Assembly: GCA_030522415.1 (NCBI GenBank)
Contig: CM060112.1
Span: 16,857,227 to 16,921,226, forward strand
Reading direction: 5' to 3'
Origin: Channallabes apus
Taxonomy: Eukaryota > Chordata > Actinopteri > Siluriformes > Clariidae
DNA: 64,000 nucleotides
Below are positions 4,201-16,200 of the stretch, one piece after another. The notes under the pieces were generated by a model. That model was not told where the DNA came from and did not search any database. It saw nothing but the letters and a program-made list of their open reading frames with translations. Positions within the stretch are counted from its first letter, which is position 1; each line of letters opens with the position of its first letter. The position numbers and the translations under genes are program-made.

Positions 4201-7200
4201 TACGTCCTCCTGGCCACCACTTGATAGAAGTGACTGTCGGGCTGTTCAAGACGAACTCCTGTGTAGAAGGGTCATAGGTCGCGGTGGTCTCGAGTCCACG
4301 TATGTGCGTTCCTGAAGGGTGCGCAGTGAACAACGCAGACACAGATACAGACATCACACATGCACACACCCGGGACAGGATACAAGTTAATACGGGACAA
4401 ATGCAGTGTACTGTAGCTGAACATTAAACTTAAAACAGAGGAAGTGAAAATCTCTAGCTTGCGGTCCAAAGTGTTAAAAGCTGGAAACGAGTTCAGCCAA
4501 AAAAGAAACCCCTTTACCCCTAAAATGTAGTCAATCTGCCTAGAGAAGTGTCAGACGCTTATAACATGCACGCACAAAGCATGGTCATTTAAAAACATTT
4601 GGGGTAATTTAGTATAAAATAATTGAATTTAATATAATTTCAATTTATTTAAACAATTGGTAGGTCTAGTAGATGTTTGACAGCTGTAATGCACTGCGAT
4701 AAAAAAAATTTTAAGTGAAGAAGTATTCAGCATTAGATGCTGACGTGGGTCTGATTGCTTGCAGTCACACAGGCTGCTCGGTTCACACGGACTCTGGGGT
4801 GTTTACCGTGCCCGAGCTCGGTCTGTGCGTAGGTGCCAACTATCTCCAGGTTCCATGCGGGCGTGAAGAGAGTGTCCAGCTGATTCGGCGAGGCCTGGTT
4901 CAGCAGCGTTGGCAGAAACATCCCGAGATGCAGGTCCAGAGGCCCGGTGCGTCCATTCTGTACGGATCTGGGGTCGCGAGTGAAAGGGTTATGGTAGCCA
5001 AGCAGGGATCACAAATGAGAATGAGAATGAAAATGTTTTTGGCAAAGGGAGGGTTAGTGATTAGTCGAAGGACAGAGTAAGGACAGGGTGGGTAAGAATG
5101 AAGGGTTATAGTGAAGGGTAGAGGGGGGGGGGAGAAAAGAAAAAGAAAAAAAAAAAAAAAAACATGGAGAGAATACAAATTGCTGTATTTAAAAACCAAT
5201 CTTAAAACTTAGTGCTGATTAGCCATCACTTGTATAACATATCATTACTGATTAATAACTTATTAATAATAATGTGAAGCAGTGTAAAGTTGTTATGCAA
5301 TTAAATCAATAATAAATGAACTAATTTAAATGGTGAAACCTTACACGGTTTATTGTAAAACTCAGTGGCAGTACGAATCACAATTGTGTGAAAGTGCGAA
5401 TTCAGAATCAATAGTGAAAAAAAAAAAGAAAAAGAAAAAAATCAGGACCTGTTCAATAAAAAAAAAAATTATAATAAAATAAAAAAGTGCTTAAATTCTG
5501 CATCACATGCTTTATTCATTGGTTAAAATTTTAAAAAGTGATCTATGATCCAAGTGATTTTTGTGAGCCAGTTTGAGAAAAATAATTTCTGAAAAGTTTA
5601 TCCGTAGCAGCCACTGATGGACGACACAGGGCTCCAGATGGCGAGTGAAATGGTCGCCAGTGCGCCTAATCATTTATATTTTACAGATAGATGAACTCAC
5701 TCTCTCCTCTCCTACTGTACATCCGCCTGCCTGGTGTGAGGGTACATTAGCATGTTAATAGTACAACAGGGATGCGCTCACTAACATTTTAAGACAAGAC
5801 GGTTCATCAAAATGGGTCATAAACTCGCAAATGATGCTCGTTATTGAATGCAGCCCCACTGTACTAGCAAGTGCGCTCCTTTGCTCTTGTGCTCAGTCCA
5901 CAATCAATGTACTTGGGTGAATTATAAGACGACAAGAGATTCATTTAACATTTGAGTATTTTCTGATTGGTTTCATTCAGTTAATTTTAATGCAGTTAGA
6001 ATTTCCTTTCTTGCCCCATCATCCGGAGATCGCTGGTTTGAATCCCGGGTGATGCTGTAACCTCTCGCAGCCGGAGGCACTGAGAGAGCTGATTGGCCGA
6101 GCTCTCCCAGGGGGGAGGGATGAGAGGTACTTGTGCTCCCACATTAATCACGGCTCTACAGCCAATCGGGGGCGTCTGTGAGCTCGCGCATGCGGAAGGA
6201 GCGGCTAGCGCTTTCCTCCGAGTGTGTTACTCCGCCACTAACGGTGCGTGAGCAAGCAGTTCGAAAAGATGCGGTCGGCTGACGTCACGCGGTTCGGAGG
6301 AAACACAGGATAGTCTTCGCCCTCCTGACTGAGTGGTAGTCTTAATGTGGAGCCCCCTAGTGATTGTGAGGAATTGGCTACGACTAATATTGGGGCGAAA
6401 ATTGGAAAAACACCCCCCAAAAAAAATTATTTCCTTTCTTCTGGAGCTTTTGAAACTCGCCCAGTGCTGTGCTGACTAATTGTGTGACTAATAAGTGATT
6501 CTCACTAGCTAGCTAATGTTATTTAAGGAAAATCGACAACTGCCAATAGCCAAAAGCTCCTAAAGATTTACGTTTGTCTGGAGTCCTGTTACTGTATATT
6601 TGGAATAGGAGATTTTTTCATTATTTTACCTGTAGACAGTACCAGTCAAAATTATGGACACATTCTACTTACAGGTTTTTCCCTGATTTTTATTTCTTTC
6701 TAAACTGTAAAACAATTCTGAATTCATCCAAAATCTCCTTTGAACAGGTGATACTTAAACTTTTTTAAGCTTTTTTTTTTTTGTAAGTCGCTCTAGATAA
6801 GAGCATCAGCCAAATGTCTTAATGTTAATGTAAAGTTAGGTTTGTTTATTGGTGATTTCTGAAGCTGGTAACTACAGTATAAATGAACGTCTCATTTGCA
6901 GCAGAGGTTTGTTTTGGTCTTGCTTTTCTTCATGAGTCCCAGTTTCATCATGGTGCTTGATGCGTTTTTGCAAAACTGTTCTTGCAAGAACTATTCCAGA
7001 ATGCCTACCTTACGTGTCTTTTAATAACAAACTTACTATTGTTATTGTTTTTCCTTAATGATATAATTCCATGTTATTGCATCATTTTGAAATCTCCAGT
7101 ATTGTTGTATAATGAATATTGAACTACAAGGTGTGTCCAAACTTTTGACTGGTACTGTAAAATCAGGCACAGAGAACATTTTTGAGTATTTTAGTCAGCA

Positions 7201-13200: not shown

Positions 13201-16200
13201 TGGCTTTATAACCTTTACCAGCCTGATAGATCTCAATTACTTTTGTTCTCATTTGTTCCTGAATTTCTTTGGATCTTGGCATGATGTCTAGCTTTTGAGG
13301 TGTTTTTGGTCTACTTCTCTGTGTCAGGTAGCTCCTATTTAAGTGATTTCTTGATTGAAACAGGTGTGGCAGTAATCAGGCCTGGGGGTGACTACAGAAA
13401 TTGAACTCAGGTGTGATAAACCACAGTTAAGTTATTTTTTAACAAGGGGGGCAATCACTTTTTCACACAGGGCCATGTAGATTTGGAGTTTTTTTTCTCC
13501 CTTAATAACGTAAACCTTCATTTAAAAACTGCATTTTGTGTTCAATTATGTTATCTTTGACTAATAGTTAACGGTTTTTGATGAGCAGAAACATTTAAGT
13601 GTGACAAACATGCAAAAGAATAAGAAATCAGGAAGGGGGCAAATAGTTTTTCACACCACTGTAAACTCAATTCAATTACAGTACAAGTGGACTGATGGAC
13701 TATTATAAGAGTAAGAGGAAATTTTATACAAAAGTATAATCTTTTTTTAATCCGCACAGATTGTCAGGGAGGTATCATGCAAATCAAATTAAACCCACCA
13801 TCATGCACTTAGGCCCTTTAAGTTCATTCCGCCACCTCTTAGTCATGCAAAGAATGAAAGAAGAGAAAATCACCCACTGATAAATAAAACTGAATAATTT
13901 ACTTCATGTCCTTCCAAAGATATTTCTCTCTAGAGCAGACGACTACACATATAGTATGAACTGATGAAGCACTGAGTGATGGTGCTACAACACTTCTGGA
14001 ATGCTGTTAAATACCCACACAGACCACGAAGACTGCTGCCAGACGTCTTAACAAGCCTTCACGTATTCCACTTACTTAGGACCATGGTAAGCCAGAGATG
14101 AGTCCACTATCAGAACCTGTGCTTATTCAATCAGGTGATAAACTGATACAGTTTGCCACAAAAGTTTCAAACAGAAGCTTTTAAAATTGTTTGCGACCCC
14201 ATTTTATGACGGGTGCCCAAAGTTTTACATTTTCCTTTTCATACAAGATTCCACAAATACAAAATGCACATCTATAGAATACTGTGCGCTATTAATAAAG
14301 AAATACTGGCTCATTGCATTCGATTTAGGACATATAGTGTACTTAACAACTTAACCTCCATTTGCCTTATTATTAGATTTATTGAAATAAGACCAGGTTC
14401 TGATGTCACCCTGAGGATCTGATCATACATATTTCAGGATTAGATGAGTGAGTATAACTGACCGTGCCCCAGTTCAGTCTGGGCGTATGTGCCAATAACC
14501 TTCAACAAACTGGCCTGTGGCAGCCATTTGTCACTCTGTTCAGGAGTACCCTGGTTGGACAACGTAGGGATGAACATCAAGTAGTGGATAGCAAGAATCT
14601 CATAGGGGGCTTTGATGGCCAATCTGCAGAAATCGACACGCACATAAAATGACAGTCCTGTCTGCATTAGGCATGTTTTGCACGTATGTCTATGAATGTG
14701 TATATCTGGTGTGTACCTGATTTATAACTTTAGGACACATTTATCTAATACATGTAGCACTTACTGCCTTGTTGCTTAATTCACCACACCTGGGTTAGAT
14801 CGCTTGTGCCTCACCTTCACGTGGGACATTTTTCATAATCAAGACAAAATTTTACAATCATTTGGGTAATAATTTATGTTTTAAATATTTGTAAGGATGG
14901 ATGTAATTTATTATTAAAATAATTAAGTCAGAATAAGATCAAGTAAGCCCCAAAAATGTAGTGCAGGATAACAGTAACTACTACAGGAAATAATGTAAAA
15001 AGGCTAAAAGACAAAGACATATGATTTTATATTTAGTGATTCCATATCATTATTGAATATTAAATTGTTCAATTTCTTAAAATTTTAAAATAGAGCATTA
15101 CACCATTAGCATTCTGGCACTGATAATTTCCATAACTATGAAAATAAACAAAAACAAATCCACAAATTTACTGTTTTTCTTACCAATATGGGAAAATGGG
15201 TGGGAAATCCCTGACAGAAAGTGGCGTTTAAAAAAAAAAAAAAAAAAAAAGTGTAAATTGTTCTGAACGCATTGCAGGGAAGTCGTTTCCTAGTTGACTG
15301 GGGGGGGGGGGGGGAGCATCCGCAAAGGGGCATGATTGCTGGGAGTTAATTTGCATTTGAACCTACAGACACTAAAACAGCGTGTTTGGAACAGGAGCGA
15401 AACAGAAGGAAGGTCAGGACTGCCAAGATGCATTAATTAAGTGGCATTTAGCTGTCTAAGGCATGTTTCCTGTCGTCAGGAGCAATTTTACCTTGCAGCA
15501 AAACAAAAACACGCACATGCATCAACTGATGGACTATTATTGTCATAAGAGGAAACATTCAATTCAATTTTATTTGTATAGCGCTTTTAACAATTTACAT
15601 TGTCGCAAAGCAGCTTTACACAATCAAAAGAATTATTTAAGTTTGTATGGAATGTGAATGTGTATGAATCAGAATGATCAGATAGACTCTGGTGAACAAG
15701 CCGAGGGCGACAGTGGCAAGGAAAAACTCCCTGAGATGGTAATAGGAAGAAACCTTGAGAGGAACCAGATTCAACAGGGAACCCATCCCCACATATTTAA
15801 TAGAAAGGTTTATTTTACTTTTTTTAAACAGTGTAAACACATACATGGAGAACATTTCAGAGTTTTTTTTTCTTATTAGCACACATGCCAGTGCGTGAAC
15901 TGACAAAAAAGTCATTGATTGTGTTCCAATACTTCTGGAATGCGGTCAAATACCCACACAATCATTTTGGTGATCATTTTTCAATTTTAAAATACCTGAT
16001 TCAATTTCTAAGAGTTAAGAGTGTCAAATTTCAAATCAATCAAATTTGTCAAAATTAATTGGACATGAAAAATCACCTCATTTCCACCCCGTAGAAATGT
16101 CTCATCGATGTAGTTGCTGCTAGTTTGTGGGTCTTTCTGTGTTGAGTTCTTTAGTTCTAGTTTGTTTTGTTGAGTAAGTGAGAAGCATGCTTATTTGGGT

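Follow-up and report, generated by a model that had tools for sequence, protein, structure and literature searches.

The alternative third exons of vertebrate ACOX1 are the described system closest to the locus analyzed here, the acox1 gene of Channallabes apus, which lies in a stretch of 64,000 nucleotides (nt) of contig CM060112.1 (positions 16,857,227 to 16,921,226, assembly GCA_030522415.1), referred to below as the window. According to passages of PMC11178532, the alternative exon 3 is 'conserved from zebrafish to humans' and gives two isoforms: ACOX1a, which has its top activity on C10-coenzyme A (CoA) and whose activity on dodecanedioyl-CoA is nearly ten times that of ACOX1b, and ACOX1b, which has its top activity on C16-CoA and is the only isoform measurably active on C24-CoA. 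Exon 3 of ACOX1a has four lysines and that of ACOX1b none in the same passages, where the statement in a first-pass annotation of the window that the two exons differ in chain preference also has its published basis. The passages of PMC10864527 are more cautious, describing two human isoforms that are alike in activity and tissue distribution, with an unclear substrate specificity and a possibly higher activity of ACOX1b on very long chains. In the human ACOX1 tandem exon event, as summarized in part of PMC9741552, 28 of 55 residues are alike between the two regions and all five predicted flavin adenine dinucleotide (FAD)-binding residues are kept; this part of the source also mentions tandem exon events with three or more members, namely the third exon of SLC12A1 and mrp with eight. 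Inclusion of both or neither of the U2AF1 exons Ab and 3 leads to stop codons and decay, and ACOX1 3a/3b is listed among the U2AF-responsive pairs (passages of PMC5224494); acox1-3I has been measured in brown trout (passages of PMC10974606). In the open-licence literature (titles, abstract starts and passages) we found no report of an ACOX1 gene with more than two exons 3; automatic annotations may show them.

In C. apus, acox1 is on the minus strand, with exons 1-7 inside the window as judged by the spliced open reading frame, and intron 2, between exons 2 and 4, holds four homologous copies of exon 3. They are listed in gene order and are named below by their first coordinate:

14463..14623, minus strand: exon 3, ACOX1a type, intact (copy 3d of the first-pass annotation); 161 nt, AG/GT borders, frame open when spliced alone
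9354..9514, minus strand: exon 3, ACOX1a type, intact (copy 3c of the first-pass annotation); 161 nt, AG/GT borders, frame open when spliced alone
8635..8767, minus strand: exon 3, ACOX1a type, 133 nt; out of frame because 28 nt are deleted, with both splice borders preserved
4807..4967, minus strand: exon 3, ACOX1b (PLDL) type, intact; 161 nt, AG/GT borders, identical to human isoform 2 at 37 of 53 residues

A tblastn search of the whole window with three exon peptides returned these same four loci (best expectation value, E, per locus from 4e-35 to 1e-10) and no fifth copy, the best match elsewhere having an E of 0.023. Reading of the flanks placed AG before and GT after each copy, and the final ten whole-codon residues are the same in all four. 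The three ACOX1a-type copies carry MFIP or MFVP and KWL, as do C. elegans ACOX-1 (MFIP and KWL) and human ACOX1a. Whole codons encode no lysine in the PLDL copy, as in the exon-3 segment of human isoform 2, and three lysines in each of the two intact MFIP copies. Because these residues and the lysine counts assign the types, the ACOX1a type is the expanded one. The four positions, the AG/GT borders, the shared exon end and the division into one PLDL-type and three MFIPTL..KWL-type copies, two of the latter intact, had all been proposed in the first-pass annotation and are upheld.

We then joined exons 1 and 2 to exons 4-7 with each of the 16 subsets of copies in between, kept in their genomic order. 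The frame stays open in just three subsets, those consisting of the 14463, the 9354 or the 4807 copy alone. The other 13 reach a premature stop, including the one in which all copies are skipped, all 11 that contain at least two copies and all eight that contain the 8635 copy; spliced alone, this broken copy leads to a stop after 155 residues, in exon 4. Loss of the reading frame is the one barrier to multi-copy messenger RNAs (mRNAs) that the sequence shows, and the earlier proposal of an expanded exon-3 set able to give at least three isoforms agrees with three copies that each complete the frame. The copies form a mutually exclusive exon cluster in that they are homologous tandem exons within one pair of constant exons, each with splice borders, and the frame is kept by single copies only, the exception being the broken copy, which is not open alone. 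Exclusion by introns that are too short or by a clash of U12- and U2-type sites was considered and rejected, since the introns between the copies measure 4948, 586 and 3667 nt in gene order and the five junctions examined lack a U12-type 5' site. The 5' splice site reads ACG/GTCAGT in the three ACOX1a-type copies and ACG/GTAAAC in the PLDL copy, with simple scores, based on a frequency table, of 6.2 and 5.2, respectively, versus 2.8-11.0 in six other exons.

The interpretation that we favor, with a probability of about 0.68, is that the known two-exon ACOX1 switch has been expanded to three usable choices, so that the gene would produce three ACOX1 isoforms. An intron-2 segment with the ACOX1a-type exon was duplicated in tandem, presumably by unequal crossing-over; two ACOX1a-type copies stayed open and diverged, and the third went out of frame by losing 28 nt. 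The spliceosome would most likely join exon 2 to exon 4 through a single copy in each mRNA, and mRNAs with other subsets would be removed by nonsense-mediated decay because the copy lengths make those subsets unreadable. The predicted products are one ACOX1b-type enzyme, which would take long and very long chains, and a pair of ACOX1a-type enzymes for medium-chain and dicarboxylic substrates. Since the latter two differ at 20 of the first 42 exon residues, they may differ in the acyl-CoAs that they take.

Comparison of intron 2 with itself reveals three kinds of block in a repeated order:

15896..15960, minus strand: part A of duplication unit 1; 80% identical to 13957-14021
15345..15436, minus strand: part B of duplication unit 1; 79% identical to 8877-8968, and 92% to 11819-11879 over 61 nt
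13785..14097, minus strand: part A of duplication unit 2; 62% identical to 7199-7515 over 320 columns
11819..11879, minus strand: part B of duplication unit 2; 92% identical to 15348-15408
8877..8968, minus strand: part B of duplication unit 3, for which no part A was found; 79% identical to 15345-15436
7199..7515, minus strand: closing part A, which follows the third ACOX1a-type exon along the gene; 62% identical to 13785-14097

The gene-order series is therefore A, B and the exon ending at 14623; A, B and the exon ending at 9514; B without A and the exon ending at 8767; and then the closing A. This series indicates repeated tandem duplication of one intron-2 segment holding the ACOX1a-type exon. 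Searched against the whole window, part A matched, besides its own blocks, one marginal 50-nt stretch inside intron 2 (5412-5461, E 0.021), and the sole match of part B outside intron 2 was at 59578-59621 (44 nt, 73%, E 6e-4); as these were the only extra matches, the idea that parts A and B are common transposons was rejected. A search with just the 152 nt that precede the 14463 copy gave no second copy at E 0.05, although a longer self-alignment crosses them. The ACOX1a-type exons are 73-79% identical (21-27% of sites differ) and their flanks differ at about 24-47% of sites, from which it follows that the duplication is old; related fish would be expected to share it. The multiplication of the ACOX1a-type exon is real, old and locus-specific, and has left two usable copies and one broken copy.

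Intron 2 also contains sequences that resemble mobile elements. Within unit 2, between exon-3 copies, an element at about 12042-13663 has 218-nt inverted ends that are about 90% alike, and from these ends we take it to be of the Tc1 type. The segment 9880-10800 has, by eye, complementary-looking ends (CCTGGGCGATA... / ...TATCGCCCAG) flanked by a repeated ACTACATCAT, and is probably a non-autonomous DNA transposon that widened unit 2. A third segment, 17308-18578, begins by eye with AGGGCTGCAACTAACGATTA and ends with TTAGTTGTTGCAGCCCT; it is probably a hAT-like element.

Between the 9354 and 14463 exons, 43 of 161 aligned sites differ and there are no gaps; their flanks (147 + 60 sites) show 54 + 20 differences and 4 + 2 internal gaps. 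A codon model for this pair gave a ratio of nonsynonymous to synonymous change (dN/dS, or omega) of 0.40, for which twice the log-likelihood difference (2dL) from omega 1 is 4.92 (p 0.027). A single omega for the three ACOX1a-type copies was 0.43 (2dL 6.99 versus neutrality, p 0.008), and separate omegas per copy gave no better fit (2dL 0.24). Under these models, purifying selection has acted somewhere among the ACOX1a-type copies, and no one copy is singled out as constrained because pairwise dN/dS and 53 codons cannot say which branch is responsible. C. elegans ACOX-1 and the 14463 copy have 24 residues in common; 20 of these are also present in the 9354 copy, which matches the 14463 copy at 12 of the remaining 29 (Fisher p 0.002); when residues 43-53 are left out, it keeps 11 of 14 C. 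elegans-shared residues. We also simulated neutral change, using the 14463 copy as the starting sequence and an indel rate estimated from the flanks, and scored outcomes that were free of stops and indels and retained 20 or more of the shared residues. The joint probability was 0.11, 0.021, 0.004 and 0.0005 at divergences (K) of 0.1, 0.15, 0.2 and 0.25 per site, and 0.16, 0.05, 0.014 and 0.004 at the same values without residues 43-53; these are rough figures, as the indel rate comes from six gaps and the starting sequence is a sister copy and not the ancestor. Half of the flank distance corresponds to a K of ∼0.25 per lineage. The 43 readable codons of the broken copy contain no stop, which suggests that its loss of frame is recent.

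The two intact ACOX1a-type exons differ at 11 of 15 residues in positions 1-15, at 9 of 27 in positions 16-42 and at 1 of 11 in positions 43-53, with dN/dS values of 0.63/0.82, 0.23/0.66 and 0.04/0.28 in the three regions, respectively (Fisher p 0.023 for residues 1-15 versus 16-42, and 0.035 for 1-42 versus 43-53). The earlier description of variation as confined to the substrate-side half of the segment is therefore too strong. Synonymous change is low in the tail (residues 43-53) too, so its likeness may be owed partly to splicing signals or gene conversion besides protein constraint. Judging from the acyl-CoA dehydrogenase fold, the constant tail presumably holds the FAD-binding residues, and the acyl pocket would be lined by the first part of the exon. 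Residues 1-15 of the two ACOX1a-type enzymes, where dN is near dS, might have been driven apart for different acyl-CoAs within a three-way switch, an extension that we regard as tentative and somewhat doubtful.

The most probable of the alternative readings concerns the 9354 copy. It is conceivable, but in our judgment unlikely, that this copy is silent and decaying like the 8635 copy, and that the fish uses only the 14463 and 4807 exons. The neighboring copy 586 nt downstream is already broken, and the 14463 copy is slightly closer to human ACOX1a (28 of 53 residues matched versus 25 of 53). Several results weigh against three usable choices, the first of them also in favor of a silent 9354 copy. 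Setting omega to 1 on the 9354 branch costs just 2dL 0.46, on the 14463 branch 2.97 and on the broken-copy branch 0.97; the comparison of 3c with 3d proposed in the first-pass annotation yields a pairwise ratio below 1 and an exon pair free of indels, but does not reject neutrality for the 9354 copy alone. Divergence of the exons (K 0.33) is not far under that of the flanks (0.51 and 0.44), the outcome of the neutral simulation varies with the K that is assumed and is due in part to the conserved tail, and the 70 nt preceding the 9354 copy contain no match to a loose branch-site pattern. Set against a silent 9354 copy are its freedom from stops and indels, its preserved splice borders and conserved residues, and the low chance of such an outcome if neutral divergence had reached the flank level (∼0.0005 at a K of about 0.25 per lineage, and 0.004 when the conserved tail is left out).

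The 8635 copy could have a use of its own, compatible with three isoforms from the other copies: it might be a poison exon, kept because it lowers acox1 mRNA through decay. Its splice borders are intact, its 5' site is the GTCAGT of its sister copies, and its stop in exon 4 after 155 residues would have the required effect. We nevertheless consider this improbable, as chance deletion in a redundant copy accounts for the facts equally well. TG repeats are bound by the splicing repressor TDP-43, and one such repeat (gene strand), which at 8784-8799 shortly precedes the broken copy and its 3' splice site, could equally silence this copy; our guess is that it may do so. A longer protein from at least two copies joined in one mRNA is very improbable: a run of four copies of 161 nt would in theory end in the required phase, but the early stops in 11 of 11 multi-copy subsets already refute it for these borders. 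Least credible of all is an assembly artefact in which uncollapsed haplotypes or misjoined reads account for the extra copies. Such an error is unlikely because the ACOX1a-type copies share merely 73-79% of their sites, and they sit in unlike introns, one of which holds the inverted-end element at about 12042-13663. Three usable exons 3 remain the reading that we prefer.

The constant exons of acox1 in the window are:

22925..23033, minus strand: acox1 exon 1, coding part from the ATG; spliced product aligned to human ACOX1 (7q84)
21188..21347, minus strand: acox1 exon 2; spliced open reading frame, AG/GT borders
4204..4311, minus strand: acox1 exon 4; spliced open reading frame
3831..3950, minus strand: acox1 exon 5; spliced open reading frame
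1543..1658, minus strand: acox1 exon 6; spliced open reading frame
1287..1456, minus strand: acox1 exon 7, with the remainder of the gene beyond the window start; spliced open reading frame

Of the 314 residues encoded by exons 1-7, residues 1-313 align to human ACOX1 isoform 2 (PDB 7q84), with an E of 2.4e-168 when the PLDL exon is used and of 1.4e-156 when the 9354 exon is used. This structure was the top solved-structure match for both of the forms searched, identifying them as ACOX1 as opposed to other acyl-CoA oxidases or dehydrogenases. The N-terminal, middle and C-alpha1 domains of acyl-CoA oxidases (PF14749, PF02770 and PF22924) exceed their cut-offs in all three open forms, PF02770 narrowly (33.8-33.9 bits, cut-off 33.3). 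The Acyl-CoA_ox_N match, which spans exon 3, scores 123.0 bits with the 9354 exon, 123.6 with the 14463 exon and 115.1 with the PLDL exon (cut-off 25). The C-alpha1 domain is only started within the window, as acox1 continues beyond the window start, and we presume that the C-terminal peroxisome signal and the catalytic glutamate are encoded by the exons outside. Elsewhere in the window, a 1115-residue open frame on the minus strand (30637-33984) encodes coiled-coil and repeat sequence, and a shorter open frame lies near 29 kb. We take these to resemble envoplakin and TEN1, respectively, which would agree with the neighborhood of human ACOX1.

If the three-isoform reading is true, two diverged ACOX1a-type exons beside an ACOX1b-type exon would amount to a set of natural mutants of the specificity segment, in a gene whose very old exon pair later saw one of its two members multiply. 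The locus would also provide a clean test of a one-of-three splice choice with the reading frame as the sole visible barrier. Were residues 1-15 indeed driven apart, it would offer a natural series of ACOX1 specificities within one gene.

Compared with the known systems, as the cited passages describe them, the frame logic of the acox1 copies agrees with that of U2AF1 exons Ab and 3, which are two 67-nt copies whose splicing was studied by experiment. The SLC12A1 and mrp events (PMC9741552) likewise present tandem copies as interchangeable choices, in genes other than acox1. The vertebrate ACOX1a/ACOX1b switch involves the same gene and the same exon position, with the PLDL and MFIP..KWL types found in C. 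apus, but it has two exons, whereas C. apus has four copies, three of them of the ACOX1a type, including the broken one.

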